A stretch of 59,642 bases of DNA, from the NCBI GenBank assembly GCA_021787985.1, contig JAJYLG010000011.1, forward strand, positions 1 through 59,642. The letters run 5' to 3'. Under the pieces are notes generated by a model. That model was not told the DNA's origin, searched no databases, and saw nothing but the letters and a program-made list of their open reading frames with translations. Source of the stretch: Chloroflexota bacterium (GTDB taxonomy: Bacteria; Chloroflexota; Dehalococcoidia; DSGV01). The position numbers and the translations under genes were made by a program. Shown here one piece after another: positions 17,992 to 36,378 of the stretch (positions are counted from its first letter, which is position 1; each line of letters opens with the position of its first letter).

Positions 17992-18019
17992 TTGACAGCG
18001 ATCGGCGCGGTGCTATACT
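17992..18019 (+). promoter_or_regulatory. Promoter of the gntR-headed operon
   Basis: A perfect -35 TTGACA (17992-17997), 16 bp, then TATACT (18014-18019) forms a strong sigma-70 type promoter. Transcription should start near 18026. The operator palindrome at 18029-18048 begins right after the expected start, so binding there would block early elongation. Confidence 0.75.
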
Positions 18020-18028
18020 TCCGGCCAT

Positions 18029-18048
18029 CTGGATGTCTAGACGTCCAG
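18029..18048. promoter_or_regulatory. GntR/HutC-type operator
   Basis: CTGGATGTCTAGACGTCCAG is a 20-bp palindrome with a single T/G mismatch pair. Its core GTCTAGAC (18035-18042) fits the HutC-subfamily GntR consensus GT-N-TA-N-AC exactly. It lies 13 bp before the regulator's GTG start, immediately downstream of the promoter, so negative autoregulation of the whole operon is likely. Confidence 0.78.
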
Positions 18049-18060
18049 CGGAGCGTGACC

Positions 18061-19747: not shown

Positions 19748-22312
19748 ATGTCCGCTGGCAGCACCGCCGGCCTGCCGTTGGCCGGCATCCGAGTCATCGA
19801 GCTGTCTTCACACTGGGCGGGCTGCTGGTGCGGGCGGCTGTTCGCCGGTCTTGGCGCCGACGTCATCAAGGTCGAGGCGCCCGAGCGCGGCGACCGTTCA
19901 CGGCTGTTCGGTCCGTTCTTCGATCCAGAACGCCCCACCGAGACGGGCGTCCCGCACCTCTTCTTCAACATGGGCAAGCGCTCCGCGGCGCTGGACCTGC
20001 GCGACCCGCGTGACGCGGCGGTGATCCGAGGCCTGATCGCCAGCGCCGACGTGGTCGTCGAGAGCCTGCGGCCGAGCGAGGCGGAGGCATACGGGCTTAC
20101 TTCCGAAGCGGTCCGCACGCTCGCCCCTGGCGCCGTGCATGTGTCCATCACCCCGTACGGCCGCACGGGGCCGCGCGCGGAATACCGCGGGAGCGAGCTG
20201 ACTGAGTACGCGGCCAGCGGCTTGATGCACATCACCGGCGAGCCCGGCCGCGAGCCGCTCGCCGTGGGCGTGCCGATGGCGGAGCTGGCGGCCGGTCAAG
20301 CCGCGTTCGCCGCGTGCGTCGCCGGGCTGCTCGCCCGTGACACGGCGGGACGGGGGACGTGGATCGATCTGGCGATCATCGACGCCGGCGTTTCCCTGCT
20401 GGAGTTCCAAGTGCAGTTCTACCTTGGGGGCGGCTACCTGGCGCAGCGGATCGGGCACTTCAACGACAAGGGCCACCCCTGGGGCATCTACCCGTGCCGC
20501 GATGGCTTCGTGGCGATCGTGTCCGGGCCCGCGCAGTCCTGGCCGACCTTCTGTGCGCGCATCGGGCTGCCGGATCTCGCTCGCGGGAAGTTCGCTTCGA
20601 TGCAGGGCCGCCAGGACAACCGTGACGTGTTCGATGCCCTCCTGCTCCCCTGGCTCGTCCAGCACGACCGCCAGGAGATCGCCGAGATCGCGCGGGCGAG
20701 CGGCATCGCGTTCGGGTACGTCCGTAACGCGGACGAGGTCGCCCGCTGCCCGCAGCTATCGAGCCTCCAGTTCTTCGAGCCGGTCCACCACCCCGATGCG
20801 GGCACGCTCACCTACCCGGGATTCCCGTTCCTCATGTCCGGGGCCCAGTGGCGAAGGAGTTGCGCGCCGCGCCTCGGCGAGCACACGCATGAGGTGCGAC
20901 GCGAACTGGATGCCCGCGCCTCGGCGCCATCCGCGGCGACGGCCAAGGCCCCCTCCCAGGATGGTGCCGCGAGCCCCGCGGGCCGGGTCAGGCGCGCGCT
21001 CGTCGGCTTCCGGGTTCTCGATCTCACCCGCGCTTGGGCCGGGCCGAGCGGGGCCGCGTTCCTGGCGGATCTCGGTGCGGAAGTGATCAAGGTCGAGCCA
21101 CCCGAAGGGGATCCGATTCGCGGGAGGGCACAGGCGACCGAGGAGGAGGGTGGTGACGGGCCGCAGCGAGACTCGGCGAGCAGCCACAACCGGTCGGCGA
21201 TCTTCAACCAGATCAACCGGTCGAAGCTGGGCATCGCCCTCGATCTGTCGAGCAGCGAAGGTCGCGCGCTGTTCCTGGAGCTGGTCGCGGTCAGCGATGC
21301 CGTTCTCGAGAACTACCGTCCGGGCGTAATGCAGTCGTTGGGCCTCGGGTACGAGGACCTGGCGAAGGTCAATCCGCGGATCGTGCTCGCCTCGATAAGC
21401 GGGTACGGGCAGACTGGCTTGTATAGCGAGTTCCGAGGCTACGGTGTGGCCGTTGAGCCGCTTTCCGGCCTGTTCTCGGTCACCGGCTACCCGGGCGGGG
21501 AGCCTCAGCGGTCCGGAGTGGACCACCCGGATCCGCAGGCGGGCCTCAGCGCGGCGAGCGGCCTGCTCGTGGGCCTCCGCGTGGCACGACGAACCGGTAG
21601 AGGGCAGCACGTGGAGACCTCCTTGCTACAGGCGATGGCAGCGTGTTTCGGGCCGAAGCTGCTCGAGCAGGCGGCGACCGGGCGAGTGCCGGGTCGGAGT
21701 GGGAATGACCTGGAGCCGCCGGCCGTGCAGGGCGCCTACCCATGCCGGGGAGAAGACGAGTGGGTGGCCGCAAGCGTTCTTACAGACGACGAGTGGCAGG
21801 GGCTGGTGAGCGTGCTCGGGCGCGAGGATTGGCTGCACGACTCGCGATTCAGGAGCGTATCGGGCAGGTACGAGAACCGCGACGTCATCCACGCGGCGAT
21901 CCGGGAGCGGGTTGCCAGCCTGGCCAAACATGCCGCGGCGGCGCTTCTGCAGCAGGCGGGCGTCCCGGCGGCGGCGGTGGCGTCGGTTGTCGATCTTCTC
22001 GAGGACGAGCAGCTCCGCGCGCGTCACGTATGGAGAACGGTGACGCAGTGCGAGGCGGGGGAGGCGGTCATCATCGGGCCGCGACTGAAGGCGGACGGCG
22101 CCGATCTGCCGGCGGGCCCGGCGCCATGCTTTGGGCAGCATAACGAAGCGATTCTCTGCGGCATCCTTGGGCACTCAGCCGCGGATCTCGCACGGTGGGT
22201 GCGTGACGGGGTGGTCGTCGCGGAGCCGGTGGCCGGGACGCTCTCGACGCCGCTGGCCGCCCCGAGGCCGCGGACGCGATCGGCCAGCGGTCAGGAGGCG
22301 CGCTCCGGGTAG
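19748..22312 (+). CDS. Fused double class III CoA-transferase (CaiB/BaiF)
   Basis: 854 aa, about twice the family length. Domain 1 spans residues 7-390 (LPLAGIRVIELSSHWAG, ADVIKVEAPERGDRSR) and domain 2 residues ~413-800 (GFRVLDLTRAWAGPSGA, AEVIKVEPPEGDPIRG), joined by an Ala/Ser-rich linker. Class III enzymes move CoA between acids through an aspartyl intermediate. At that position domain 1 has Glu150 (YRGSELTEYAASG) and domain 2 has Gly566 (RGYGVAVEPLSG). The missing Asp could mean altered chemistry, a pseudo-enzyme half or a clade that is known to vary here. Follows the hydratase with no gap. Confidence 0.87.
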   Translation: MSAGSTAGLPLAGIRVIELSSHWAGCWCGRLFAGLGADVIKVEAPERGDRSRLFGPFFDPERPTETGVPHLFFNMGKRSAALDLRDPRDAAVIRGLIASADVVVESLRPSEAEAYGLTSEAVRTLAPGAVHVSITPYGRTGPRAEYRGSELTEYAASGLMHITGEPGREPLAVGVPMAELAAGQAAFAACVAGLLARDTAGRGTWIDLAIIDAGVSLLEFQVQFYLGGGYLAQRIGHFNDKGHPWGIYPCRDGFVAIVSGPAQSWPTFCARIGLPDLARGKFASMQGRQDNRDVFDALLLPWLVQHDRQEIAEIARASGIAFGYVRNADEVARCPQLSSLQFFEPVHHPDAGTLTYPGFPFLMSGAQWRRSCAPRLGEHTHEVRRELDARASAPSAATAKAPSQDGAASPAGRVRRALVGFRVLDLTRAWAGPSGAAFLADLGAEVIKVEPPEGDPIRGRAQATEEEGGDGPQRDSASSHNRSAIFNQINRSKLGIALDLSSSEGRALFLELVAVSDAVLENYRPGVMQSLGLGYEDLAKVNPRIVLASISGYGQTGLYSEFRGYGVAVEPLSGLFSVTGYPGGEPQRSGVDHPDPQAGLSAASGLLVGLRVARRTGRGQHVETSLLQAMAACFGPKLLEQAATGRVPGRSGNDLEPPAVQGAYPCRGEDEWVAASVLTDDEWQGLVSVLGREDWLHDSRFRSVSGRYENRDVIHAAIRERVASLAKHAAAALLQQAGVPAAAVASVVDLLEDEQLRARHVWRTVTQCEAGEAVIIGPRLKADGADLPAGPAPCFGQHNEAILCGILGHSAADLARWVRDGVVVAEPVAGTLSTPLAAPRPRTRSASGQEARSG

Positions 22313-22346
22313 AGCTCGAGCACAGTAGTCCAGGGGAGGAAGGGAC

Positions 22347-24107
22347 ATGCACGCCAACTCAGCCACGCGCAGCCAATCCGGGGAGGAGGAGAAGATGGGC
22401 AGCAGCGCAGTCAGCCAGAGGCGTTCTCGTCAACGAGAGGTTTCGCGGCGGAGATTCCTGACACTCGGGGCGGTAGCTGGGGCCGGCATCGTGGCGCTGC
22501 CGGTCGTCTCGGCCGCGTGCGGTTCCGCGAAGAAGAGCGCTACGTCGGCTTCGCCCACCAGTACGGCGACCGGCGGAACCCCCAGCGGCACGGCACAGCC
22601 TCGGCGTGGGGGCACGGCGACGGTGCCGACGGCAGGAGACCCGCCGCACTTCGATCCGCAGCTTACGCAGGCGTTCTACACGCAGTACGTTTACACCTTG
22701 GTTGGCAGCCGGCTGATCGCGTTCTCCCACGGGCCGAACATTAAGGCCGAGGACAACACGCTCGTACCGGACGTGGCTGCCGCGATGCCGGAGCAGCCGG
22801 ACAAGACGACCTACGTGTTCAAGCTCCGTCCGGGGGTGAAGTGGCAGAATCTGCCGCCAGTCAGCGGCAGGGCTCTGACCGCGGACGACGTCAAGTACAC
22901 CTACGAGCGATTCATCGCCAAGAAGAACCCGTCGGCTTATCTGCTGGACATGATCGACAAGGTCGAGGTGACGGCCCCCGACACAGTTCGCTTCACTCTG
23001 AAGTTCCCCTACGCCCCGTTCCTCACGAATCTGGCGTGGCAGTACTCGTGGATCGTGGCGAAGGAGGCCGTGGAACAGAACGGCAATCTCCAGCGGGGGC
23101 CGGTGGTCGGGACCGGGCCCTTCATGCTCAAGGACTACACCAAAGGCAGCCGCTACAACTACGTGCGCAATCCGGACTACTTCGTGTCGGGCCAGCCCTA
23201 TCTTGACGGGTTCGTCATCGCGGTGATCCCGGATGACAGCGCCGAACAGTCCGCGTTTCGCAGCGGCCAGGTCGACCTGTACACCACGGGACTGGGCCCG
23301 CAGCCTCCCAAGACCCTCCAGTCGATGCAGTACGCCACCGGGGTGCGCGACCACCCGCAGATGTCGCTGTTTCAGCAGGGTCCTCAGATGCGGATGGACC
23401 GGCCGCCATTCAAGGATCCGCGGGTGCGCAAGGCCATGCGTCTGCTCATGAACCCGCAGTCCTTCATCGAGACCCTCGGCTTCGGGAAAGGCTACTGGAG
23501 TGGTCCGGTGTCGCCGGGCATGGGACAGTGGTCGCTCAGCCAGGATGAGCTGAAGACCCTGCTCAAGCCGGATGTCCAACAGGCCAAGCAACTGCTCCAG
23601 GAAGCAGGGGTCGCCAATCTGAGCACCACCCTCACCACCACGACCGGCTACGGGTCCGTCATGTTGCAGGCGGTGCAGCTCTATGTGGAGCAGGCGCGCC
23701 AGGCAGGCGTCACGCTGGATGTGAAGACCGTGGACTACGCCACGTTCATCAAGACGAAGTCTCCCGCCGGCGGCGACTACAGCATGATCTATGGCACGTA
23801 CACGGGATTCGTGGATCCCGACCAGCAGCTCTACGCGCTCTACTACTCGAAGAGCGCGCGTAACGAGACCCATATCGACGACCCCACGCTGGACGCGATG
23901 ATCGACAAGCAGCGGGGCGAGTTCGACGCGCAGCAGCGGCAGAAGCTGGTCCATGATGCCCAGAAGTACATCCTTGCAAACGTCAACACCATACTGAATC
24001 CCTTCGATTGGGACGTGCACAGCTTCACTCAGCCTTGGCTGGAGAACTTCTGGGTGGCGAACGACTACGGCTGGGGCGCTGAGCACCTGTGGACCACCAA
24101 GGGATAA
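22347..24107 (+). CDS. ABC substrate-binding lipoprotein, family 5 (peptide/nickel/other)
   Basis: 586 aa from ATG 22347 (GGGGAGGAAGGG); an ATG at 22395 also has a strong GGAGGAGGAG site, so the start is open. A twin-arginine segment (SRRRFLTLGAVAG) combined with a lipobox (VVSAAC) indicates a Tat-exported lipoprotein. The mature part is a family 5 extracellular solute-binding protein: VPDVAAAMPEQPDKTTYVFKL, LTADDVKYTYERF and a late GYGSVMLQAVQLYVEQARQAG. Family 5 members bind oligopeptides, nickel and various organic solutes; substrate unknown. Followed by two permeases but no ATPase. Confidence 0.9.
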   Translation: MHANSATRSQSGEEEKMGSSAVSQRRSRQREVSRRRFLTLGAVAGAGIVALPVVSAACGSAKKSATSASPTSTATGGTPSGTAQPRRGGTATVPTAGDPPHFDPQLTQAFYTQYVYTLVGSRLIAFSHGPNIKAEDNTLVPDVAAAMPEQPDKTTYVFKLRPGVKWQNLPPVSGRALTADDVKYTYERFIAKKNPSAYLLDMIDKVEVTAPDTVRFTLKFPYAPFLTNLAWQYSWIVAKEAVEQNGNLQRGPVVGTGPFMLKDYTKGSRYNYVRNPDYFVSGQPYLDGFVIAVIPDDSAEQSAFRSGQVDLYTTGLGPQPPKTLQSMQYATGVRDHPQMSLFQQGPQMRMDRPPFKDPRVRKAMRLLMNPQSFIETLGFGKGYWSGPVSPGMGQWSLSQDELKTLLKPDVQQAKQLLQEAGVANLSTTLTTTTGYGSVMLQAVQLYVEQARQAGVTLDVKTVDYATFIKTKSPAGGDYSMIYGTYTGFVDPDQQLYALYYSKSARNETHIDDPTLDAMIDKQRGEFDAQQRQKLVHDAQKYILANVNTILNPFDWDVHSFTQPWLENFWVANDYGWGAEHLWTTKG

Positions 24108-24129
24108 CGTGATCGCGGGCGGATGAGGG

Positions 24130-25080
24130 ATGCTACCGTACGTCTTCCGACGACTGGTGCTGATGGTGCCGGCGTTGCTGCTGCTGACGGTGGTGGTCTT
24201 CGTGCTGATTCGGGTCGCCCCGGGAAACGCGGCACAGTTGCAGCTCGCCGAATCGGGAGCGGGCAGCCAGCAGGCGATCAAGGAGCTGGAGCACCAGTGG
24301 CACCTGGATCGCCCGATCCCGGTCCAGTATGGCCTTTGGCTGCGGGACATCGCGGGCGGGCGTTTTGGCCGCTCGCTGTGGACCGGCAGCAACACCCTGG
24401 GCCAGGTGGGTCGGTATCTTCCGGTCACCGTCGAGCTGGCGGTCCTGAGTGTGCTGCTGGCGACGCTGGTCGGCGTGCCGGTGGGGGTGGCGGCGGCCTA
24501 TCGGCGAGGCGGCCTCACCGACCATGGACTGAGATTCGCATCAGTCGTCGGCCTGGCCGTTCCCGGGTTCTGGTTGGGGACGATGCTGATCGTGCTGCCT
24601 TCGGTGTGGTGGGGCTACGCTCCGCCGCTGGTCTACACCCCGTTGTGGAAGGACGTCGTCGAGAACGTCAAGCAGATGGTCCTGCCGTCGGCGGTGATCG
24701 CCGTGTACCTGGCCGCCACGACCATCAGGGTCACACGCTCCGTGGTGCTCGACTTTCTCCGTAGCGACTTCGTGCGTACGGCGCGAGCCAAGGGCCTGGC
24801 CGGCAGGACGATCGCCGGGCGGCACGTGATGCGGAACGCCGGCGTTCCCGTGCTCACGTTGATCGGCGCCCAGTTCGGGATCCTGCTCGGCGGCGTGGTG
24901 GTGCAGGAGCAGGTCTTCGCGCTTCCCGGCCTGGGCCGCCTGACCTTGGAATCCATCGTGCATCGCGACTACACCCAGGTGCAGTTGAACGTGCTCGTGT
25001 TCGCGCTCATGGTCATGCTCGTGAATCTGCTGACCGACGTGGCGTACGCCGTGTTCGACCCGAGGATTCGTTACTCATGA
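24130..25080 (+). CDS. ABC permease, DppB/OppB type
   Basis: 316 aa, six membrane segments. N-terminal LPYVFRRLVLMVPALLLLTVVVF and RVAPGN are characteristic of the first permease of oligopeptide-type importers. The EAA loop is seen around FVRTARAKGLAGRTIAGRHVMRNA. Partner of the family 5 binding protein just upstream and of the next permease, whose ATG overlaps its stop codon (ATGA). Confidence 0.92.
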   Translation: MLPYVFRRLVLMVPALLLLTVVVFVLIRVAPGNAAQLQLAESGAGSQQAIKELEHQWHLDRPIPVQYGLWLRDIAGGRFGRSLWTGSNTLGQVGRYLPVTVELAVLSVLLATLVGVPVGVAAAYRRGGLTDHGLRFASVVGLAVPGFWLGTMLIVLPSVWWGYAPPLVYTPLWKDVVENVKQMVLPSAVIAVYLAATTIRVTRSVVLDFLRSDFVRTARAKGLAGRTIAGRHVMRNAGVPVLTLIGAQFGILLGGVVVQEQVFALPGLGRLTLESIVHRDYTQVQLNVLVFALMVMLVNLLTDVAYAVFDPRIRYS

Positions 25081-26030
25081 CCGCCGAGCACGAACCAGCC
25101 GGGCTGCAGATGGTGGGTGAAACCGGGGTGGGGCGCGAGGCGCTGGCGCCGGCCGGAGCGAGGCCTTCCGCCGCTTGGCAAAGGACCTTGCGCCGTTGGC
25201 TCGGAGGGGTCGCGCGTTTCGCTCGGCGTGAGCCGGCTGGCGCGGCGGGTCTGGTGGGGTTGCTGGCGTTCGCCGCCATGGCGGCAAGCGCCAATGTCAT
25301 CTCGCCCCACGACCCGCTCGCAACCGGCATCCCGCTGCAGCGCTTCTCGGCGACCCATCCGCTGGGCACGGACCAGCTCGGTCGCGACATGCTCAGCCGG
25401 ATTATCTGGGGAGCACGTACGGCGATGTTGATCGGCGCGATCGCGTCCGCCGTCAGCGTGCTGGCCGGGTTGGTGCTCGGCGTGCTCTCGGGCTTCGTGG
25501 GAGGGGTCTTCGACCTGGTCTTCCAGCGGGTGGTCGACGCGGTTACCGCGTTTCCCGTGCTGCTTCTCGCCCTGGTGGTGGTGGCGCTGTTCGGGGCTTC
25601 CCTGCCCGTCATCGTCGCGGCGATCGCGCTCGGCTCGACACCGACGGTCATCCGGGTGATTCGCTCGAGCACGTTGGCGCTGAAGGAGGTGACGTTCGTG
25701 CTGGCGGCCCGCAGCGCGGGCGCCTCGCAGATTCGCATCATGTGGCGGCACATCGTGCCCAACGTCACCTCCTTGACGCTGGTGTTCGGGGCCCTGGGCT
25801 TCGCGCAGGCCATCCTGGCCGAAGCCGCGCTGGGCTATCTGGGTCTCGGGGTACCGCCGCCGACCCCCGATTGGGGCAGCATGCTGAGCGCTGGCGCGAT
25901 CAACTACATGCTCCAGGACCCATGGGTCGCCGTGTTCCCCGGCGTCGCCATCTCCCTGGCGGTGCTCTTCGTGAACTTGCTCGGCGATGCCCTGCGCGAC
26001 TACCTGGATCCTTCGTTGCGAGGCTGGTGA
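25077..26030 (+). CDS. ABC permease, DppC/OppC type
   Basis: 317 aa. N-terminal cytoplasmic extension of ~60 residues, then FARREPAGAAGLVGLLAFAAMA and HPLGTDQLGRDMLSRIIWGAR, the signature of the second permease. EAA loop near FVLAARSAGASQIRIMWRHIVPN. ATGA overlap with the first permease makes co-translation likely. The two ATPase genes (DppD and DppF) that normally complete the importer do not follow. The next gene is the oxidoreductase gamma-delta subunit, so ATPases must come from elsewhere. Confidence 0.92.
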   Translation: MTAEHEPAGLQMVGETGVGREALAPAGARPSAAWQRTLRRWLGGVARFARREPAGAAGLVGLLAFAAMAASANVISPHDPLATGIPLQRFSATHPLGTDQLGRDMLSRIIWGARTAMLIGAIASAVSVLAGLVLGVLSGFVGGVFDLVFQRVVDAVTAFPVLLLALVVVALFGASLPVIVAAIALGSTPTVIRVIRSSTLALKEVTFVLAARSAGASQIRIMWRHIVPNVTSLTLVFGALGFAQAILAEAALGYLGLGVPPPTPDWGSMLSAGAINYMLQDPWVAVFPGVAISLAVLFVNLLGDALRDYLDPSLRGW

Positions 26031-26163
26031 GAAGCCCGTGTCGATGCCGTCACCGCCGCCCGATGTGCATATCGAAACTGGCGCGTGGATGAGGCGCAGG
26101 GGGCAGCCGTGTCATGGCGCCTCGCAGCACGGAGCATGACGAACGTATGGAGGGAGCATTTCG

Positions 26164-27192
26164 ATGGGAGCTGTAAGGGAGATCAATCTGGTCTGCATGT
26201 CCTCACAGGGATCCGTGCAGACGATGGAGATCCTGGCGAGGACGTTCTATGAGCAATACGGCTATCATGTGGCATCGCAGGTCTTCCCCGGTACGAGATC
26301 GAAGAGCTCGCCGGTAGTTTCGTATCTCAAAGCCGGCCCGGAGCGGATCCCGATCGCGTCGCCCAACTACAACCCTGACGACGTGCTCGTCTTCTGGGAC
26401 GGCCTGCTCAGAGTTGCCGGGAAGCGCGCTCATCCCGTGGTCGCCGATGCTATCGGGCGCCTGCGCACGGGCAACCTGATCGTCAACACCACCCTTGCGC
26501 CGACCGAGCTCGACTTGCCGTTCAAGTTCCGCGGCACGGTGGCGGCCGTTGATGCCACGGGCGTCGCCAAGGAGGTTCTCAAGCGCGATCCGCCGCCGGT
26601 CGGGATCGTCATGGCCGGCGCGTACATCGCGGTCACCCATGCCCTTGACATGGAGGTCTTCTTCGACGTGGTGCGTGAGCACTTCCCCGGGCGGCTGGGG
26701 GAGCAGAACGTGGAGGCTGCGCGCGTGGCCTGCGAGCGACTGCAGATCGCCCCCGAGGTGGTCTCGCTGTCCGACGCGGTGCTTGAAGATGAACCGCCGG
26801 TGGACCCCATGTCGTTGCCAATCCAACCGCCGCTGCAGAAGCGGCCCATGCCCGGGCTGCCGAACGGAGATCCCCACATCTGGCGAACGAGCATCCCGAT
26901 CTGTGAGGACGGGCTCTGCGCCTGCAATGACATGTGCCTGAGCGAGGTGATGTGCCCCGACAACACGGGCTTCATCGTGCGCCATCCGAGCCTCGCCGGT
27001 CCGCCTCATCAAGGCTACCGCATCGATGTTGACCATTGTCGCGGTTGTGGCATCTGCGCGGAGGTGTGTGTGTATAGCGCGATTCACATGTTCAACGAGA
27101 CCGAGATCGTGCGAACGAACCCAAACTATGGCGGGATTACGGTGGAGCCGTTTTTCGGGGCCCGGCAGGGCGTGAAGGGAGGTGTGGCGTGA
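26164..27192 (+). CDS. 2-Oxoacid:ferredoxin oxidoreductase, fused gamma-delta subunit
   Basis: 342 aa. Residues 1-190 are a pyruvate/ketoisovalerate oxidoreductase gamma domain. The conserved GQGG of the family is SQGS (14-17) and the RGG segment is KSS (47-49), both unusual. Residues 240-310 are a ferredoxin-like delta region. One CxxCxxCxxxC group is clear (Cys292, 295, 298, 302), and an irregular cluster of cysteines (247, 252, 254, 258, 264) lies before it. Gamma-delta fusions with separate alpha and beta genes are seen in oxalate oxidoreductase and in several other members. The alpha gene begins within its stop codon (GTGA). Confidence 0.85.
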   Translation: MGAVREINLVCMSSQGSVQTMEILARTFYEQYGYHVASQVFPGTRSKSSPVVSYLKAGPERIPIASPNYNPDDVLVFWDGLLRVAGKRAHPVVADAIGRLRTGNLIVNTTLAPTELDLPFKFRGTVAAVDATGVAKEVLKRDPPPVGIVMAGAYIAVTHALDMEVFFDVVREHFPGRLGEQNVEAARVACERLQIAPEVVSLSDAVLEDEPPVDPMSLPIQPPLQKRPMPGLPNGDPHIWRTSIPICEDGLCACNDMCLSEVMCPDNTGFIVRHPSLAGPPHQGYRIDVDHCRGCGICAEVCVYSAIHMFNETEIVRTNPNYGGITVEPFFGARQGVKGGVA

Positions 27193-28430
27193 CCACCGCG
27201 ACCGATCGATTCGTGCGCGAGCACAAGACCGTCATCATCACCGGCAACCAGGCGGCCGCCGAGGCCAGCCGGCTCGCACGTGTTGGCGTCGTGTGCTTCT
27301 TCCCCATCGGGCCATCGGACGAAGTGGGCGAGCACCTGGTGCGGATGGTGAACCGGGGGCAGCTCGACGCCAAGATCATCGACCTCGAGAACGAGCGGAG
27401 CGTCGTGAACGCCCAGATCACGGCGACGCAATGCGGGGTGCGCGCATCGTTCAGCACGAACTCGGAGGGGCTCGTCTTCGCCTACCAACCGCTGTTCTGG
27501 TCGGCGTACGCGCGGGTGCCGATCGTGGTGACCGTCGCCCATCGCGCCATGGAGCCGCCGACGATCATCGTTCCGGACGACCACGACACGATCATTTACC
27601 GGGACACGCACTGGCTCCAGTTCTACTGCGAGAACCCGCAGGAGGTGTTCGACACGGTGTTGCAGGCCTATTGGGTGGCGGAGCGGCACGACGTCATGCT
27701 GCCGGCTTTCGTGACATGGCCGGGCTGGGAGGTCTCGCACTCGACTGCGCCGGTCGAGATGCCCAGCCAGGAGGCCGTTGACGCCTTCCTGCCGCCCTAC
27801 CAGCTTCTGCCGGGGCAGGACCTGTTGACCACGGATCTGGCGGAGATCTACGGGAATCGGCCGGCGGGCGGGGCAGGAGACGAGCCGCGTTACATGGAGG
27901 GCCGTTACCAGATCGACCGCGCCCTGAACGTGAACGCCAAGAACGCCATCGAAGAGGCGCATCGCGAGTACCTGAGGGTCTTTGGTCGGGGTTACGGAGG
28001 ACTGGTCGAGACCTATCGCGCCGAGGACGCGGATATCGTGCTGGTCGCGATGGAGAACATCGCCACCGTCGCGCGCGAGGCTGCGGATCAGATGCGGGCC
28101 CGCGGGTTCCGAGTGGGAGTCCTCAAGGTCCGAGTCCTGCGCCCATTCCCGACCGAGGCCGTTCGTCAGGCGGCGGGCGGCGCCCGCGTCGTGATGACGT
28201 TGGACCGCAACCCGGTGGAGCTGCTCTATCACGAGCTCCGGTCGGCGCTCTACGACGAGCCCGATCGGCCGCTCATGCTGGGCAGGACGGTCGCGCTTGG
28301 CGGCAGGGATTTCACCGTGCGCGACTGCAACGAGCTCGTTGAGGAAGCGGCCGTTGCCATCAGCGCGCCGGACGCGGTCCCGGTCACGTCCTGGAGGTTC
28401 AAGGTCGCCAAGGAAGAAGACGATCGTTGA
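27189..28430 (+). CDS. 2-Oxoacid:ferredoxin oxidoreductase, alpha subunit
   Basis: 413 aa, GTG start overlapping the preceding stop. Contains the alpha-subunit N-terminal pyrimidine-binding region and a C-terminal transketolase-like domain II (DIVLVAMENIATVAREAADQ, RVGVLKVRVLRPFPTEAVR). In pyruvate enzymes the active-site segment reads Y-P-I-T-P; here it is F-P-I-G-P (38-42), and the substrate-facing Thr is therefore Gly. That argues for a substrate other than pyruvate, though it may just reflect distance. Together with beta and gamma-delta it should decarboxylate a 2-oxoacid to an acyl-CoA or equivalent while reducing ferredoxin. Confidence 0.85.
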   Translation: MTTATDRFVREHKTVIITGNQAAAEASRLARVGVVCFFPIGPSDEVGEHLVRMVNRGQLDAKIIDLENERSVVNAQITATQCGVRASFSTNSEGLVFAYQPLFWSAYARVPIVVTVAHRAMEPPTIIVPDDHDTIIYRDTHWLQFYCENPQEVFDTVLQAYWVAERHDVMLPAFVTWPGWEVSHSTAPVEMPSQEAVDAFLPPYQLLPGQDLLTTDLAEIYGNRPAGGAGDEPRYMEGRYQIDRALNVNAKNAIEEAHREYLRVFGRGYGGLVETYRAEDADIVLVAMENIATVAREAADQMRARGFRVGVLKVRVLRPFPTEAVRQAAGGARVVMTLDRNPVELLYHELRSALYDEPDRPLMLGRTVALGGRDFTVRDCNELVEEAAVAISAPDAVPVTSWRFKVAKEEDDR

Positions 28431-28499
28431 GCAAGGCGTGCGAGTGGTCCCACGGGTATCCACGGCGCGCACTGACGAAGAGAGAGGAGCGAGATCGCC

Positions 28500-29420
28500 A
28501 TGAAGATGGTGCTTGAAACCAAGGAAGCTCGTCCCTACCGGAACATCGACGCATCCCAATGCCCGGGATGCCCCTCGAACCTGGCCACCAAGCTGGTGAT
28601 GGAGATCGTGTTTCAGCTCGCGGAACAGCGGGGTGACCAGCCGATCGTTTTCGGCCAAGGGTGCGGCATCGGCCGCGACATCATGCACCGCAGCGGTATC
28701 GGCACCCACGACAGCGGCTGCGTGGGCATTCGCGCGGCCATGGAGATGCGCGGGATAGATCGGCCGCTCGTCGTGATCGACGGGGACGGCCAGATCGACA
28801 TGGGGTTCGATGACTTCTCGGGCGCATTCCAGTACGGCGCCCCGTATATGCACATCATCTGCGACAACCAGTCGTACGCGGCCAGCGGCACGCATGCCAC
28901 CGGCATGACGGACATGTTCGCCCGAGTGAGCACGAGGCCGAGTGGACGTGTTGGTGGACCCAACGGGAGGGTCAACCCTCGCAAACAACCGGCGATGATG
29001 ATCCGGTACAGCGGCGCCCGCTATGCCGCGACGGCCTCTCCGGCGCACATCCGGGACTTCGAGAGGAAGATCCTCCAGGGTCTCGACAATATGCCGTCGT
29101 TCATCCAGGTGTTCACGCCGTGCACATTGTCCTGGGGCTACAACGACTCGGATTCGTATGAGATCACGAAGCTCGGCATCGACTGCGGGATCTGGCCGCT
29201 GTGGGAGTGGTCGGACGACGGCTTCCGGAGAACGGTGCGGTTCGACGCCGACGAGATGCCAGAGAAGCTGCGCGCGTATGTCGGCATGCAGCGGCGGTAC
29301 GCGCACTTGACCGACGACGATGTGGCCGCGATGGAGCGGTACATCCTGGATCTCAACGCGCAGATCGATCAGATGCAGGCCGCGTTCCCCGGGAAGGCAC
29401 GAGCCGGGGCTGCATCGTAG
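28500..29420 (+). CDS. 2-Oxoacid:ferredoxin oxidoreductase, beta (TPP) subunit
   Basis: 306 aa. Binds thiamine diphosphate and the proximal [4Fe-4S] cluster. The four ligands seen in the family appear present: Cys21 and Cys24 (CPGCP), Cys55 (FGQGCGIGR) and Cys208 (FIQVFTPC). The TPP motif GDG begins at 95 and ends at Asp122-Asn123, where N-N is usual (GDGQIDMG...CDNQSYAASG). The beta subunit, last of the enzyme's three genes, sits 69 bp after alpha behind GGAGCGAG. The substrate is uncertain; see findings. Confidence 0.85.
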   Translation: MKMVLETKEARPYRNIDASQCPGCPSNLATKLVMEIVFQLAEQRGDQPIVFGQGCGIGRDIMHRSGIGTHDSGCVGIRAAMEMRGIDRPLVVIDGDGQIDMGFDDFSGAFQYGAPYMHIICDNQSYAASGTHATGMTDMFARVSTRPSGRVGGPNGRVNPRKQPAMMIRYSGARYAATASPAHIRDFERKILQGLDNMPSFIQVFTPCTLSWGYNDSDSYEITKLGIDCGIWPLWEWSDDGFRRTVRFDADEMPEKLRAYVGMQRRYAHLTDDDVAAMERYILDLNAQIDQMQAAFPGKARAGAAS

Positions 29421-29460
29421 CGCAGGTACTGACGTCCGGCCATTACGGAGAGAGGAGCTG

Positions 29461-30381
29461 ATGAGAGTGGGCCAGAGCTTTAGAGAGCGCATGGTGCGTC
29501 CTACGGCTGAGGTGATCAGCGCTCCAGTCGCGATCGACCCATTGATGGCGGCGCTAGCCAAGGGCGCGGGATTCGACACGGTGTATCTGGCCGGGGGGGT
29601 CCTGGGCTACACGCTGGCTGTCACGGAGGCGCTTCTCACGGTTACAGAGGTCGCGGAACGGGTTCGGTCGATCCGGGAGGTGGTGGACGGCGTCAGTGTA
29701 GTGGCGGACGCCGGGGTCGGTTTTGGAGACGCCGTCCACACAGCTAGGGCCGTGCGTGCGCTCGAGCAAGCGGGCGCTTGCGCGGTCGAAATCGAGGACC
29801 AAGTTGCCCCGAAGCGGGTGCACCATCACAAGGGCGTCGAGCACCTGGTATCGACCGACGAAATGGTGGGGAAGATACGCGCCGCGGCGGACGCCCGCCG
29901 TAACCTCGGCACGGTTATCATCGCGCGCTGCAACGCGATCGCGCACGAGGGGGTGAGACGGGCGCTGGATCGAGGAGCTGCATACGTCGAGGCCGGTGCT
30001 GACGTGCTCATGTTCCGCCCGGTGACCGCGACGGACTTCGAGGAGGTCACCCGCGGGACCTCGGTGCCGCTCGCCGCTATGGCCGCCTACGGGCCGACGC
30101 GTCCGGACTCCGAGATGGCGAAGGCAGGATACTCGTTGTCTGTTTATCCCTTTCCAGTGTTTGTGCTTGCCTTCGAAGCACTGAGAGGCGGCTACCAAAG
30201 GCTCCGACAGGGGACCATCAACGGGCGTGGCACGGGAATGACCCCGCGGGAGATCGGTGCGCTGATTGACGAAGTGGGCTCGACGATCGGCGTCGAGCAG
30301 CTCTACGAGATCGAGGCGCGCACGACGGAAGCAGGCATCGGGCGGGACACGGAAACCGTGCCCGCGACGGCGGGAGGATAG
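29461..30381 (+). CDS. Isocitrate lyase/PEP mutase-fold lyase
   Basis: 306 aa from ATG 29461. TIM-barrel fold typical of ICL/PEPM: metal-binding VADAGVGFG (Asp83), CAVEIEDQVAPKR (Glu112, Asp113), later IIARCNA and AGADVLMF. In isocitrate and 2-methylisocitrate lyases a catalytic Cys lies in K-(K/R)-C-G-H; here the equivalent is K118-R-V-H-H-H, so classical lyase chemistry with Cys is unlikely. Related enzymes without that Cys include oxaloacetate decarboxylase, PEP mutase and phosphonopyruvate hydrolase. Position just behind the oxidoreductase suggests it makes or consumes a 2-oxoacid. Confidence 0.83.
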   Translation: MRVGQSFRERMVRPTAEVISAPVAIDPLMAALAKGAGFDTVYLAGGVLGYTLAVTEALLTVTEVAERVRSIREVVDGVSVVADAGVGFGDAVHTARAVRALEQAGACAVEIEDQVAPKRVHHHKGVEHLVSTDEMVGKIRAAADARRNLGTVIIARCNAIAHEGVRRALDRGAAYVEAGADVLMFRPVTATDFEEVTRGTSVPLAAMAAYGPTRPDSEMAKAGYSLSVYPFPVFVLAFEALRGGYQRLRQGTINGRGTGMTPREIGALIDEVGSTIGVEQLYEIEARTTEAGIGRDTETVPATAGG

Positions 30382-30384
30382 GCG

Positions 30385-31512
30385 ATGTATGCGGCGAGAA
30401 GGATCCGTCCGCGCACTCAAGTGCCCTTGTTCACGGCCGTGGTCGTGGCCTTCGCTTTCTTCGCGGGTTGCTCGTCTTCGAAGCCAGCATCAACGGCGAC
30501 CACGCAACCGGCTTCGTCCGCGTCGGCAGTGGCGGTCTCGAGTCCGACCGGGAATTGTACGCACTATGACGACATCCGCGTGATGATCTTTGCTGGTCTG
30601 CTGAACAACATGCTCACATTCGTCGCCAAAGACGCGGGATTCTTCCACAAGAACTGCCTCAACGCGACGCTGGTGCCGGTCGCCAGTGGCCCAGCGGGGA
30701 TATCACAGGTCCTGTCCGGCGACCTGCAATTCTCGGACAGCTCTTTCGATAACGTGATCCTGGCGCGCGCGAAAGGGCTCGCGATCCGTGTGGTAACCGG
30801 TGAGTCGACGGGAGTTGCCTACGCCCTAACCGCGCGTAAGAGCCTGCCGCTGCCAGATCTCTCAAAGGGCTATCCGGCGGTGATGAAGAACCTGGTCGGC
30901 AAGAAAATCGGCGTATTCGGTTTGGGCACCGGCTCGGAACTCTTCGTGCGCGCGCTCTTCCAGGGCGCAGGGCTGAGTCCAGACTCGGCAACATACATCG
31001 GAGTCGGCTCGGTCCCAACCCAGCTGACGGCCCTGCAAAACGGGTCGGTTGACGCGATCATGACGGCCGACCCCGGCGACCAGATCGCTGTTCAAGAAGG
31101 ATTCGGCCAGGTCGTCGTCAACCTTGCGACCGGAGAGGGTCCATCCGAGGTCCGCACGATGGGCGGTACCTTTCAGGTCAAGGTCGCTTCCGAGGCGTAC
31201 CTGAAATCACACGCGGACGTGGCACGCAGGTTTGTTGAGGCGTACAGGGAGGCGAATGCATGGGTTCATGACCCCGCGAATCTGGATGCGCTCGCTCGCA
31301 TAATGGTGGCTCGGGCGGGCGTCGCCACGACGGTGCCCAACGCAGAGCAGCTGAACCGCCAACTGGCGCAACTGTGGGCCGGTCATGCGGGTGTGGACGT
31401 GAGCCGCGCCAGCGTTGATGCGTGGGAGAAGTTCGAAACGCACTTCGGTAACCTGAAGTCCCCGGTCTCGTTTTCGGACGTCGTCTGGGCGGGAGCGCCG
31501 ACCGCGCCCTGA
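30385..31512 (+). CDS. ABC substrate-binding lipoprotein, NitT/TauT (NMT1/SsuA-like)
   Basis: 375 aa, starting 3 bp after the lyase gene stop. Lipoprotein signal with lipobox FFAGC, Ser/Thr/Ala linker, then a periplasmic-binding fold like SsuA/TauA/THI5-NMT1: VMIFAGLLNNMLTFVAKDAG (site-1 binding lobe), VASGPAGISQVLSGDLQFS, and NGSVDAIMTADPGDQIAV. These receptors bind sulfonates, pyrimidine precursors, bicarbonate or small aromatic acids; the ligand is not predictable. The ATPase and permease follow, giving a complete importer. Confidence 0.87.
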   Translation: MYAARRIRPRTQVPLFTAVVVAFAFFAGCSSSKPASTATTQPASSASAVAVSSPTGNCTHYDDIRVMIFAGLLNNMLTFVAKDAGFFHKNCLNATLVPVASGPAGISQVLSGDLQFSDSSFDNVILARAKGLAIRVVTGESTGVAYALTARKSLPLPDLSKGYPAVMKNLVGKKIGVFGLGTGSELFVRALFQGAGLSPDSATYIGVGSVPTQLTALQNGSVDAIMTADPGDQIAVQEGFGQVVVNLATGEGPSEVRTMGGTFQVKVASEAYLKSHADVARRFVEAYREANAWVHDPANLDALARIMVARAGVATTVPNAEQLNRQLAQLWAGHAGVDVSRASVDAWEKFETHFGNLKSPVSFSDVVWAGAPTAP

Positions 31513-31542
31513 CCGGCGCCCTGGGTAAGAAGGAAGGGTAGC

Positions 31543-32328
31543 ATGCCTGGCAGCACGATTGCTGTTCGCCAAGTACGGCACTGGTTCGGCTTGGCCGGGC
31601 CCGGGGATGCGAGAAGGGTGTCGGTGCTTGACGGCGTATCGCTGGACGTGGCGTCGGGCGAGTTTCTCGCGATTGTGGGTCCCAGTGGGTGCGGGAAGAC
31701 CACCGTTCTCAACATGGTCGGTGGACTGATAGATCCGCAGCACGGTGAGGTTCTCGTGAACGGGCACCGCCCTGAGATCGGCGCGCCAGATATTGGATAC
31801 TTGTTCGCCCGCGACGGCCTGTTGCCATGGAGGACCGCTGAAGCCAACGTCGCTCTGCCTCTCGAGATTCGCAAGGCTGCGCGCAAGGACCGCCACAGGC
31901 TTGCGTCACAGGCCCTTGTGGCCGTAGGTCTGGGCGAGTTCGCGCACGCCTATCCGGCGCAACTCTCGCATGGCATGCGCCAACGTGTCGCCCTAGCGAG
32001 GACGCTTGTCACCGGACCGAACACGCTACTGATGGACGAGCCGTTCTCGGCGCTCGACGCGCAAACACGTCTGGCGCTCCAGGAGCAGTTCATGCGGCTC
32101 TGGCAGCATCAGTCGAGCACCGTGCTCTTTGTGACCCACGACTTGGCCGAAGCCGTCGCTCTCGCCGATCGTCTCGTCGTTTTCTCGCAGCGACCGGGAA
32201 GGGTCAAGGCTGAGTTCCCAATCGATTTGCCGCGGCCTCGCAGCGTGACCCAACTCCAGGCTGACGCCTCCTACCACCGCATCCTTCAGCAGGTGTGGGA
32301 TGTCTTCAAGAGCGAGGTGACCGTCTAA
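31543..32328 (+). CDS. ABC ATPase, SsuB/TauB type
   Basis: 261 aa. Walker A GPSGCGKT at 46-53, Q-loop region YLFARDGLLPWRTAEANV where the usual Gln is replaced by Ala-Arg, signature LSHGMRQRVALART, and Walker B LLMDEPFSALD. The signature begins L-S-H-G rather than L-S-G-G, common in this subfamily. Energises the importer formed with the preceding binding protein and the next permease. Confidence 0.93.
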   Translation: MPGSTIAVRQVRHWFGLAGPGDARRVSVLDGVSLDVASGEFLAIVGPSGCGKTTVLNMVGGLIDPQHGEVLVNGHRPEIGAPDIGYLFARDGLLPWRTAEANVALPLEIRKAARKDRHRLASQALVAVGLGEFAHAYPAQLSHGMRQRVALARTLVTGPNTLLMDEPFSALDAQTRLALQEQFMRLWQHQSSTVLFVTHDLAEAVALADRLVVFSQRPGRVKAEFPIDLPRPRSVTQLQADASYHRILQQVWDVFKSEVTV

Positions 32329-32329
32329 C

Positions 32330-33202
32330 ATGGCAAGCGACGCCTTTCAAGCGACCGCGACCCAGGATGATTCACTCGATCTGTCGCGGAGTGCACCGAA
32401 CTCCTCGCCTCGCCGGCAGGCGCTGTGGCGATCTACTGCGACCCGACTTGGTACCGTGCTCGTCGTGGTCGTGGTCTGTCTCTTCTGGGAACTGACAGCG
32501 CGCGAACGATGGATGAATCCCATTTTTACGGGCCAACCCGTGAAGGTCCTCGGATCGCTGTGGGAGCTTATCCGGGGAAACATGCTGTGGGAAGACGTGG
32601 CCGCGACCGTTGAGGCGACCCTGGTCGGGGTCGTGGCCGCGTCTGCCTGCGGCATCGTCCTTGCCTTTGTGCTCAGTCGGCTTCGCTTGGTGTACGCCGT
32701 GGTCGATCCCCTCTTTGTTGCCCTCAACAGTCTTCCGCGGGTCGCGCTTGCGCCGCTCTTCTTGCTCTGGTTCGGCATCGGCCTCGAGTCGAAGGTATTC
32801 CTAAGCGCGAGCGTGGCCTTCTTCGTGGTCTTCCTTAATACGGTTGCGGGCATCGACAGTGTCGACCGTGACCACCTCGTCCTTGCGAGATCACTTGGGG
32901 CAGGCGCCTGGCAGACGTTCCGCAAGTTTGTGCTGCCGTCTTCTGTGCCCAGCATTTTTGCAGGCTTGGAGCTTGCGATGATCTATGGCTTCATTGGCAC
33001 GGTGACTGGTGAGATGCTGGCGGGCCAGAGGGGTATTGGGGTTAGAATATCATACTACTCTGGGCTGTTTCGTACGAACCACATGCTAGCATACCTCTTC
33101 GTACTGATGATTGTGACAACCGCGATCGCTACAATGCTGCGCTGGGTCAGGCGCCGGCTACTGCGTTGGCAATCGGCAGGAGTGCACCAGATGGTACAGT
33201 GA
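32330..33202 (+). CDS. ABC permease, SsuC/TauC type
   Basis: 290 aa; start follows the ATPase stop by one base. About six membrane helices, with the EAA-like loop SLGAGAWQTFRKFVLPSSVPS. The 3' third (near 33000-33150) is visibly richer in A/T than its surroundings, for example AGAATATCATACTACTC, which may mark acquired DNA. Completes the NitT/TauT-type importer. Confidence 0.9.
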   Translation: MASDAFQATATQDDSLDLSRSAPNSSPRRQALWRSTATRLGTVLVVVVVCLFWELTARERWMNPIFTGQPVKVLGSLWELIRGNMLWEDVAATVEATLVGVVAASACGIVLAFVLSRLRLVYAVVDPLFVALNSLPRVALAPLFLLWFGIGLESKVFLSASVAFFVVFLNTVAGIDSVDRDHLVLARSLGAGAWQTFRKFVLPSSVPSIFAGLELAMIYGFIGTVTGEMLAGQRGIGVRISYYSGLFRTNHMLAYLFVLMIVTTAIATMLRWVRRRLLRWQSAGVHQMVQ

Positions 33203-33380
33203 GGCCGACCAGTCGGTTACGTCGGCAAGGGGTGCTACCCGGCGAGTGCAGGGCGAGGTGCAACGGATCGGGGAGCGGGGCACTGGGGTGGCAAGTGGTC
33301 GCGTGGCTCGATGTGGCGGGCGGTGTACCGCTCGGCGCGAGATAATGACCTGCTGCGGCGGAAACGGAGGCCAAGGAGGC

Positions 33381-34169
33381 GTGGATCTGGGGCTGGAGGG
33401 CAAGGTCGCCGTGGTGAGCGGTGGAAGTCGTGGTATTGGTGCGGCTGTCGCCCAGCAGCTGGTGGCGGAGGGCGCTCGCGTGGCCATCGTGGGTCGCAAC
33501 CAGGACAGGCTAGACCTGGCTGCGACTCGTCTGCGCGGCACCGTTCGCGGTGCTGAGGTCGTGACTGTGTGCGCGGACCTGGCGGAGCCGGACTCCGAGA
33601 GCCGGCTTAGTTCCGAGGTGCTCGCGAAGCTGCCGATGGTCCACGTCCTTGTGAACAGCATCGGTTCGGTGCCGGCTGGACCGCTCGAGGCACTCGATGA
33701 GTCTGCCTGGGCGCTGGGCATCAACTCGAAGTTACTGGGATACGTAAGGGCCATGAACGCGGCCATCCCGAGCATGCAGGCGCAAGGGTGGGGTAGAGTC
33801 ATCAATATCGTTGGCATACATGGCGTCAAACCCCAGGATGCGAACTTCGCGCCGGCGGCCGTAAATGCGGCGCTAGTGATGCTCACCCGCTGTGCGGCAG
33901 CTCGATACGGCAAGTGGGGAATCACGGTCAACTGTGTCAACCCGGGGCCAGTGGCGACGGAGCGTCTGCGCTACCTGATCGCAGACCAATGCCGCCGCAC
34001 TGGTCGGAGTGAGGATGAGGTGCGCGCGGCTCTCGTATCGAAGATCCCCGTGGGGAGGGTCGCGAGCCCGGAGGAGATCGCTTCTGTGGTGACGTTCTTG
34101 GTCTCAGAGAAAGCCGGCTTCGTGAATGGCGCCGTAATCGACGTAGACGGCGGACAAGTGGCTGGATAG
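33381..34169 (+). CDS. Atypical short-chain dehydrogenase (SDR)
   Basis: 262 aa from GTG 33381, chosen because family members start MDLGL-GKVA; AAGGAGG lies immediately upstream at very short spacing. NAD(P)-binding SGGSRGIG (13-20) and VNSIG (NNAG equivalent). The catalytic Ser-Tyr-Lys is absent: the strand that normally ends I-S-S reads INIVGIHG, and Y-x3-K is replaced by P158-AAV-N162. SDRs without these residues exist and may not be reductases. C-terminal VNPGPVATERL and FVNGAVIDVDGGQVAG are normal. Last member of the gntR-headed run. Confidence 0.85.
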   Translation: MDLGLEGKVAVVSGGSRGIGAAVAQQLVAEGARVAIVGRNQDRLDLAATRLRGTVRGAEVVTVCADLAEPDSESRLSSEVLAKLPMVHVLVNSIGSVPAGPLEALDESAWALGINSKLLGYVRAMNAAIPSMQAQGWGRVINIVGIHGVKPQDANFAPAAVNAALVMLTRCAAARYGKWGITVNCVNPGPVATERLRYLIADQCRRTGRSEDEVRAALVSKIPVGRVASPEEIASVVTFLVSEKAGFVNGAVIDVDGGQVAG

Positions 34170-34448
34170 GTAGCCAAGCGGGATGGGCTCGTCTGCCGTG
34201 TCTCAGGCGCGGCTTGTGCGACGTGGCCGCTTTGGCAGATGCCCCTGGGGGAAACATGTGCAGTGGGTCCGGCGGCATGCGCGGGGCGACCACGCACCGT
34301 GGTGGATCGTTCGTTGGAGCGGCGGCACCTTGAGGTAGTCGGACTTCGTGGTCGCCTCGGGCGGCCGGCGAAGGTCGAGCAGGAGCGCGCTCGGCGCAAT
34401 CCGGCGGGTCGGAACGCGCGAGCAGTGATCGTGGGAACGTGATGTGCG

Positions 34449-35204
34449 ATGCCGAGTCAGCATGAGGTGCTGCGCGATGCGCTGTTGGCGATTCTCGCGC
34501 TCGGCGCCGCCACGGTTCGGTCCTTCACCGGATTCGGGATCGCCCTCGCGTTCGTCCCGCTTGCCTCGGTGATCGAAAACGCCAAGTCGGTCGTCGTCGT
34601 GGCGAATCTCCTGAACATCGGCACGACCCTGCCGCTGCTGCTCGATCTCCGGGCCGGCGTTCGCGTCCGCGAGGTGAGCTGGCTGGTGGTCGGATTCGCG
34701 GTGGGCGCGCCCGTGGGCGCCGTGCTCCTTCGAGAGCTCTCGACTGGGTGGATCAAGATCGCGGTCGCGGTCGGGGTGGTCGTCATGGCCGCCCTCGTGT
34801 GGGCGCAACGGGAGCGCGTTCGGATTCGCTCGAGCGCCGGTGGCGCGCTGGGCGTCGGAGCATTCAGTGGCCTCCTGCGATCGACGACCGGGATGGGCGG
34901 TCCGCCGGTTGTGTTCTATCTGCTCGGCCGCGGCTTCCGGGCCGAGGAGCTGCGGGGCACGATGGTCGCCTATATCGTGCCGTCGGGCATCATCGGCATC
35001 GCTTCGCTCGCGGCGGCAGGTCAGATCCACCGCTCGGAGCTGACACTCGCCATGCTCTTGGCCCCGTTTGTCGCGGGCGGGCTGCTGCTGGGTCGCAGGT
35101 TCAGATCGTTCGTGTCCGAGGCGGCGTTCGTCAAAGTGGTGCTCGGGCTGCTGATCGCCTCGTCGCTGGCGAGCCTTGGGGCCACGGTGCTCGCACGCCT
35201 CTGA
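34449..35204 (+). CDS. TauE/SafE-family membrane permease (second copy)
   Basis: 251 aa, eight hydrophobic stretches. GAATVRSFTGFGIALAFVPL and SGLLRSTTGMGGPPVVFYLL are the two half-repeats with glycine-rich loops. A shorter and more divergent relative of the gene at 16.4 kb. Separated from the SDR by 279 bp with no clear gene, so it may have its own promoter; its position just after the catabolic run suggests export of an anionic product. Confidence 0.83.
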   Translation: MPSQHEVLRDALLAILALGAATVRSFTGFGIALAFVPLASVIENAKSVVVVANLLNIGTTLPLLLDLRAGVRVREVSWLVVGFAVGAPVGAVLLRELSTGWIKIAVAVGVVVMAALVWAQRERVRIRSSAGGALGVGAFSGLLRSTTGMGGPPVVFYLLGRGFRAEELRGTMVAYIVPSGIIGIASLAAAGQIHRSELTLAMLLAPFVAGGLLLGRRFRSFVSEAAFVKVVLGLLIASSLASLGATVLARL

Positions 35205-35373
35205 CTCTGAGTGCCTTCGACTCCGCGCGTGACGCTGGTTCCTCTTGGACCGATCCCACCCGCCGGCAGGAGCTGCCTGACGCGTCGGGGATCCTGTGCT
35301 CGGCGAGCCCTGTGGCCCGGAACGATCCCCCACGGGCCCGGGCCTGGATGAGCCGCCAGTGGGGCAGTGGCGT

Positions 35374-36378
35374 TCACGCCTGGATGGCGCGCATCGCGGC
35401 GATGACCGCATCCTCCGCCGCGTAGTCGAACGCCTGGGGATGCATTGCCTGCTCCTCCGGGCCGTGGCGCTCGTACGGGTGGGCGGCCATCCATCGAGCG
35501 GCCTCCGCCGTTCCCGTCTCCGGGTCCACGACGTCCTCGTAGCCAAGCTCCGCGCGAATCCTGAAGTAGTCGCACAGGTTCGATTGATTGCGCGCCAGCG
35601 GGTTGCGCCCGTTCCATAGCGAAAGCGGGCAGGGCACGAGGTCCCATCGGTGGCCGAGGGCATCAGCAACGACCTCGCTGATGCGACGCGCGGTGAGCGC
35701 TCGCGTGTCACCCACGTTGTACACTTTGCCCTCGGCGGCCGGATGTTCCAACGCCAACATCACCGCGTGAGCAAGGTTCCGCACGTGGCCACGCTGAGGC
35801 AGCATCAGGCCGTCACCCGGTAGCAGCACTTCGGTACGGCGGTCCAGCACCCGCCGAACCAGGTACCACTCATGCGGAGGGTTCGCGAACGGGCCGTACA
35901 CCAGGGGGTAGCGAAGCGCCGTCACGCTGAGATCCCCGCGTTGGTGCGCACGGAAGGCCGCTTCCTCCCCTTGCGCCACCAGGGTATGGAATCGGTGCCC
36001 TTCCAGGTCGTCCCAGCCCGGATCGCTTTCCCTGACAGGAAGTGGGACGCCCGCGAAGCTCGGGTCGTCCGACCACATGTTCTTGTAACGCCCGTTGCCG
36101 CTGATGGTGATCAGGCGACGGGCTCGGCCCGGGAGCGCCTCGAGAACTGCAAACACCCTGGCTCCCGTGTTTACTGCCGCGTCGAAGCGTCGCTCTTCGA
36201 GTGCCCGTGCCATCTCGGCCGTCTCGCGGGTGCTGCCATGGATGTGCTCCACATCGCGCGAGAACGCCGTCTCGTGGCGTCCGGTATGGTAGACCGTGAC
36301 ATCGTGGCCGCCGGCGAGGAGGTTCTCAACGATCACGCGCCCGGTGGGACCGGTACCTCCAAGCACCAGAACCTGCAT
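35374..36378 (-). CDS. NAD-dependent epimerase/dehydratase (extended SDR)
   Basis: 334 aa from ATG 36378 (GGAGGTGG upstream). N-terminal Rossmann motif VLVLGGTGPTGRVIVENLL, a later PLVYGPFANPP, and RGHVRNLAHAVMLALEHPAAEGKVYNVGD, standard for extended SDRs. The usual YxxxK catalytic pair is not obvious. Could be an atypical reductase or an isoflavone-reductase-like protein. It diverges from the alpha/beta hydrolase gene; the intervening 226 bp has no other gene. Confidence 0.82.
   Translation of the reverse strand: MQVLVLGGTGPTGRVIVENLLAGGHDVTVYHTGRHETAFSRDVEHIHGSTRETAEMARALEERRFDAAVNTGARVFAVLEALPGRARRLITISGNGRYKNMWSDDPSFAGVPLPVRESDPGWDDLEGHRFHTLVAQGEEAAFRAHQRGDLSVTALRYPLVYGPFANPPHEWYLVRRVLDRRTEVLLPGDGLMLPQRGHVRNLAHAVMLALEHPAAEGKVYNVGDTRALTARRISEVVADALGHRWDLVPCPLSLWNGRNPLARNQSNLCDYFRIRAELGYEDVVDPETGTAEAARWMAAHPYERHGPEEQAMHPQAFDYAAEDAVIAAMRAIQA

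Follow-up and report, generated by a model that had tools for sequence, protein, structure and literature searches.

In the 2-oxoacid:ferredoxin oxidoreductase (OFOR) of Sulfolobus, the carboxylate of the substrate is held by the threonine of a YPITP motif together with a paired arginine, and mutants of the motif residues are inactive or badly impaired. Oxalate oxidoreductase (OOR) has an arginine where the OFOR motif has this threonine, and in DaPFOR the residue Asn996 shifts position upon pyruvate binding (PMC5020499). The CoA-binding P-loop is contained in domain III of OFORs (PMC8091585). From the mutagenesis, the YPITP threonine has been treated as near-essential, and the arginine of OOR is the only natural exception named in the literature that we found; a literature search for the motif FPIGP returned only unrelated uses of the string.

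Here, we describe an OFOR trio with FPIGP in place of YPITP, encoded in a window of 59,642 nucleotides (the whole stretch of DNA that was analysed) from a Chloroflexota bacterium (contig JAJYLG010000011.1). The genes and motifs of the window that are given below with coordinates lie on the + strand and are numbered as in the window.

The gene trio and its relatives

The first gene (26164-27192; 342 aa) encodes the gamma subunit, in which domain III (PF01558, E = 4.7e-16) is fused to a C-terminal dicluster ferredoxin-like domain. Among the curated models, those of PorC type scored below their cut-offs, and PorD and OOR-delta were matched. The alpha gene (27189-28430; 413 aa) begins with GTG, shares 4 bp with the 3' end of gamma and encodes the TPP pyrimidine-binding domain I and domain II (PF01855, E = 1.2e-35); it matched the alpha chain of the Methanosarcina acetivorans PFOR (9bt4) with E = 7e-66. 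The beta subunit (28500-29420; 306 aa; PF02775, E = 4e-10), which carries the TPP pyrophosphate site and the proximal cluster, had 9bt4_C as its best match both by sequence and by fold. The coordinates and reading frames given for the three subunits in the initial annotation of this DNA were right, and PF01855 (POR_N), PF17147 (PFOR_II), PF01558 (POR gamma) and PF02775 (TPP_enzyme_C) all scored above their cut-offs in the one gene set. AlphaFold2 single-chain models matched known structures with TM-scores of 0.85-0.90 over 9bt4 and 5c4i for alpha (pLDDT 85; Foldseek TM 0.86-0.88) and about 0.71-0.75 to 9bt4 for beta, in which the remodelled loops, including residues 56-64, are of low confidence. 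With 9bt4 and 5c4i as their best matches, the predicted structures confirm the OFOR fold.

One close homologue was found by a scan of a collection of genome contigs and one more by surveys of the window's class and phylum. The former (L031/L032) belongs to the Proteobacteria bacterium isolate YF1.bin20 (63% identity in alpha), the latter (L043/L047) to another class of the window's own phylum (64% in alpha). Both have FPIGP and the same changes in beta and gamma, with identities of 62-64%. No further homologues were found when the search covered the order, class and phylum to which the proteobacterial genome belongs, the class of genome G662, plasmids and viral contigs; in the collection, the window's order is represented only by the genome of the window itself. 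One other OFOR alpha homologue, L049, has a single in-frame TGA within the match. In total, only three members of the clade were found. Because their genomes are draft assemblies in several contigs each (one bears MAG in its title), a mis-binned contig is possible.

The initial annotation had proposed a phylogeny of all three subunits. Trees were computed for alpha, beta and domain III of gamma, and in each of them the three members form one and the same clade, supported at 100/100. The stems of the clade are long (2.9, 2.85 and 1.67 in the three subunit trees), and the trees carry a long-branch warning and do not fix the point at which the clade attaches. Inside the clade, the window groups with the proteobacterial copy and not with the copy from its own phylum, with strong support in alpha and lower support in beta and gamma, which suggests horizontal transfer. 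Within alpha, the active-site stretches are nearly invariant among the three members while the rest varies: 12 of 13 positions are identical in residues 34-46, 13 of 17 in 65-81 and 37 of 46 in 88-133, compared to 40 of 101 in residues 199-299.

Substrate pocket, cofactor sites and CoA loop

The FPIGP motif occupies residues 38-42 of alpha (27300-27314), where PFOR has YPITP and OOR has YPIRP. Among 53 other alpha subunits, the motif reads YPITP in 39, YPISP in seven, FPITP in five and YPIRP in two, and none has the glycine, which bears out the initial annotation on this point; FPIGP is present in all three clade members, that is, in the window and its two close homologues. The catalytic Glu69 is found in 53 of 53 alphas and is followed by a clade-specific Arg70 (the two residues at 27393-27398), which is His or Phe in nearly all others. 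The carboxylate-binding Arg119 is likewise found in 53/53, and since it is kept here, a 2-oxoacid remains the likely class of substrate. It lies close to Glu122 (27543-27554 for residues 119-122); an acidic residue at position 122 is confined to this clade and to the two YPIRP (OOR-type) proteins.

In beta, the cysteines said in the initial annotation to be kept for the cluster (C21, C24, C55 and C208) are indeed invariant in the alignment of 22 betas (A1), as are D96, D122 and N123 of the TPP/Mg motif GDG...DN. The same annotation had considered the Asp-Asn of the TPP motif unusual and Asn-Asn usual. For the OFOR family this is wrong: D122-N123 is universal, including in the solved PFOR and OOR, and we rejected it as an oddity. 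The residues that follow, however, are remodelled. Segment 124-138, QSYAASGTHATGMTD (28869-28913), replaces an ExYMNTGxQRSxxTP-type sequence in the relatives, with changes of E to Q at 124, N to A at 128, T to S at 129, Q to H at 132, S to T at 134 and P to D at 138, each of which affects a residue found in 31 of 31 relatives. Ala128 aligns with the pocket residue Asn996 of DaPFOR. The loop behind the cluster cysteine Cys55 is shortened by a 10-residue deletion and contains a clade-specific Cys74 (28653-28727; low confidence in the model). In the outgroup, 59 beta columns show at least 90% conservation; 14 of these are fixed to another residue in the clade, compared to 0-2 in control trios of similar divergence, and the excess is smaller in alpha, with seven such changes and 0-6 in the controls. 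The strongest evidence for an altered specificity lies in beta residues that were absent from the list in the initial annotation, as were the shortened loop and the first cluster motif of gamma described below. Together, the glycine at alpha 41 and the alanine at beta 128 would be expected to enlarge the pocket or to alter its shape. Homologues of proven pyruvate activity carrying the same residues would have refuted the new specificity proposed in the initial annotation, but the solved pyruvate enzymes have threonine and asparagine at these sites.

The gamma subunit has SQGS at residues 14-17 and KSS at 47-49, where the relatives mostly have ERRGAP. Both departures noted initially are real, but the final serine of SQGS is not odd, because the solved M. 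acetivorans PFOR has GGQGS. The real oddity is the loss of the Gly-Arg-Gly that precedes QGS: residues 11-17 (26194-26214) read CMSSQGS, where the relatives have GRGGQGx. A GRGGQG or GRAGQG-like loop was present in 18 aligned gammas, and most other loci encode a gamma with GRGGQG. All three clade members have CMS(S/G)QGS, so that two of the three P-loop glycines and the P-loop arginine are lost in every one. The gamma change is more plausibly a damaged CoA phosphate loop than an alteration on the substrate side. The P-loop is gone in the CoA-independent MtOOR and in the OOR-type locus L041; here it is broken and not wholly absent, and since its Gln-Gly-Ser half is kept, CoA may still bind. (L041 is an OOR-like trio with a YPIRP alpha and a fused gamma-ferredoxin without P-loop; it scored 384 bits to the OOR alpha model, which has a cut-off of 500.) In the ferredoxin-like part of gamma, the first cluster motif, C-x4-C-x-C-x3-C-x5-C-P (C247-C264; 26902-26955), departs from CxxCxxCxxxCP, its five cysteines being conserved in 3/3 clade members; the second, CRGCGICAEVC (C292-C302; 27037-27069), is canonical.

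Genes around the trio

The trio is located inside a run of co-oriented genes with short gaps between them, and from this spacing and orientation we infer that the whole run is one operon. Its order is a GntR regulator, an enoyl-CoA hydratase, a two-domain CoA-transferase, an Opp-type importer, the OFOR, an isocitrate-lyase-like protein, a second ABC importer and an SDR. The G+C content of the run (region 18000-36000) is 0.66, compared to 0.70 on both flanks, consistent with acquisition from elsewhere.

In the class III CoA-transferase (19748-22312; 854 aa), the two halves are similar to succinate-glutarate and succinyl-CoA:mesaconate/formyl-CoA transferases as well as to both subunits of benzylsuccinate CoA-transferase. 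Immediately upstream of gamma lie genes A, B and C of a peptide/nickel-type importer (22347-26030), which encode a binding protein and two permeases; D and F, the genes that normally supply the ATPases, are absent from the run. The gene after beta (29461-30381) encodes a member of the isocitrate lyase/PEP mutase superfamily, in which KRVHH stands in place of the catalytic-cysteine motif KRCGH of methylisocitrate lyase, and a glycine in place of the second Asp of the metal motif DAD.

A separate acyl-CoA-forming enzyme is encoded at each of the three loci, the CoA-transferase in the window and a ligase at the two others. In L031, a PaaK-like CoA ligase and the gamma-ferredoxin form a single 817-aa open frame (L031:7482-9935) without a stop at the junction, an unusual arrangement seen in a single MAG, and a 7Fe-type ferredoxin gene follows beta. 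In L047, a PaaK-like ligase directly follows beta; among the structures in the PDB, it matched PaaK enzymes and 2-hydroxyisobutyryl-CoA synthetase, among others. The other genes around the trio differ: the isocitrate-lyase-like gene beside beta occurs only in the window and MmgE/PrpD only in L047, so that no common pathway could be read off.

Predicted reaction and comparison with described enzymes

We consider it somewhat probable that the trio represents a distinct, rarely sampled OFOR subfamily, with a predicted 2-oxoacid substrate other than pyruvate or oxalate, possibly released as the free acid. Pyruvate and oxalate are probably not the substrate, because glycine replaces the carboxylate-side Thr or Arg and alanine the pocket Asn, which should leave more room, and the predicted reaction is probably one not yet assigned by anyone. 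The TPP-bound 2-oxoacid would be decarboxylated, and two electrons would pass through the iron-sulfur clusters to ferredoxin. With less certainty, CoA would not be the acyl acceptor, or would be bound differently; the free acid would be released, and the CoA ligase or CoA-transferase encoded alongside would make the thioester. Such free-acid release and activation by a second enzyme are suggested by the broken P-loop together with the neighbouring ligase or transferase, although the ligase or transferase may equally act ahead of the OFOR, taking an acid that has been imported. We put forward only tentatively, and as rather less likely than not, that this is a second kind of CoA-independent OFOR, which would convert an organic 2-oxoacid to the free acid and leave the thioester to be made later by a dedicated acyl-CoA synthetase (fused to gamma in one lineage) or a CoA-transferase. 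If true, the usual one-step OFOR chemistry would be split over two catalysts.

Several other explanations were weighed. It is possible, if on the whole unlikely, that the trio is a CoA-dependent OFOR for a bulky (e.g., branched or aromatic) 2-oxoacid, in which CoA is held by what remains of the loop, with the ligase or transferase catalyzing another step of the same catabolic pathway. Retention of Arg119, of the overall fold and of the QGS of the gamma loop would agree with this, as would the T to G and N to A changes, which should enlarge the pocket, and the neighbouring transporters and enzymes, which resemble those of carboxylic acid catabolism. However, two of the three P-loop glycines and the P-loop arginine are lost in all members, like in the CoA-free OOR, and the ligase is fused to gamma in L031. 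A reductive direction, in which acyl-CoA made by the ligase or transferase is carboxylated to the 2-oxoacid with reduced ferredoxin, is improbable: OFORs are reversible, and two loci carry a CoA-activating enzyme that is fused to the OFOR or lies beside it, but such a reaction requires CoA handling, against which the broken P-loop argues, and the examined gene run contains no dedicated low-potential electron source.

We hold it just as improbable that the enzyme is an OOR or a very close variant of one, the canonical OOR being already refuted. The gamma-ferredoxin fusion and the subunit set are shared, the CoA loop is lost in both, and the acidic residue at alpha 122 is common only to OOR types and this clade; yet the oxalate-binding signature arginine of YPIRP is Gly, the pocket Asn of beta, which OOR retains, is replaced by Ala, there is no grouping with MtOOR or L041 in the alpha or beta trees, and the scores are far under the cut-offs of the OOR equivalog models (193/500, 98/590 and 37/230 bits). 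Least probable is a decaying or non-functional paralogue. Many family-conserved positions are changed and the stems are long in all three trees, but in each of the three genomes, which represent two phyla, all three reading frames are intact, and the altered residues are fixed rather than drifting, with the cofactor ligands kept. The presence of FPIGP in two distantly placed homologues, and of the same fully supported clade in three subunits, thus points to a conserved subfamily. A new specificity rather than decay, as proposed in the initial annotation, fits these observations, with the reservation that the Asp-Asn forms no part of the argument and that the specificity itself is a prediction.

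By sequence criteria, the trio falls within the OFOR superfamily but not within PFOR, OOR or phenylglyoxylate dehydrogenase as these were defined in our tests. The last of these (PadEFGHI; NF045764 and related models) belongs to the same superfamily, and its alpha model was matched at 240 bits, but the trio is set apart by model scores under the cut-offs (240/700, 89/700 and 37/300 bits for PadG, PadI and PadE) and by the fusion of gamma and ferredoxin. The scanned genes next to the trio belong to families other than that of the NADH-linked subunit PadH. PFOR (PorABGD) was likewise rejected, both by the NCBIfam PorA, PorB and PorC equivalogs, with 323.5/550, 132.6/405 and 71.6/270 bits, and by site, since the pyruvate-contacting Thr and Asn are replaced by Gly41 in alpha and Ala128 in beta, and the GxGxxG loop is CMSSQGS. 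Both alpha and beta nevertheless find their best PDB match, in sequence as in fold, in the multi-subunit PFOR of the M. acetivorans type (9bt4), at about 33% and 24% identity, respectively, in the fold alignments. This enzyme shares the fold, the subunit set, the TPP Glu, the GDG...DN motif, the carboxylate Arg and the beta cluster cysteines, whereas here YPITP is FPIGP, the beta Asn is Ala, the GRGGQG P-loop is broken, and the delta ferredoxin is fused to gamma and has an odd cysteine spacing. The OOR of Moorella thermoacetica (5c4i) has in common with the trio the gamma-ferredoxin fusion, a CoA loop that is not intact and an acidic alpha 122 next to a Pro; in contrast, the trio lacks Arg31, has the beta Asn and its neighbours replaced and forms a separate clade. 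The conserved Gly, the lost pocket Asn and the broken CoA loop mark an active site that has been re-engineered in nature. Should the enzyme be CoA-independent, the oxalate enzyme would no longer stand alone, and the two would offer a comparison for the choice between CoA and water as the acyl acceptor.
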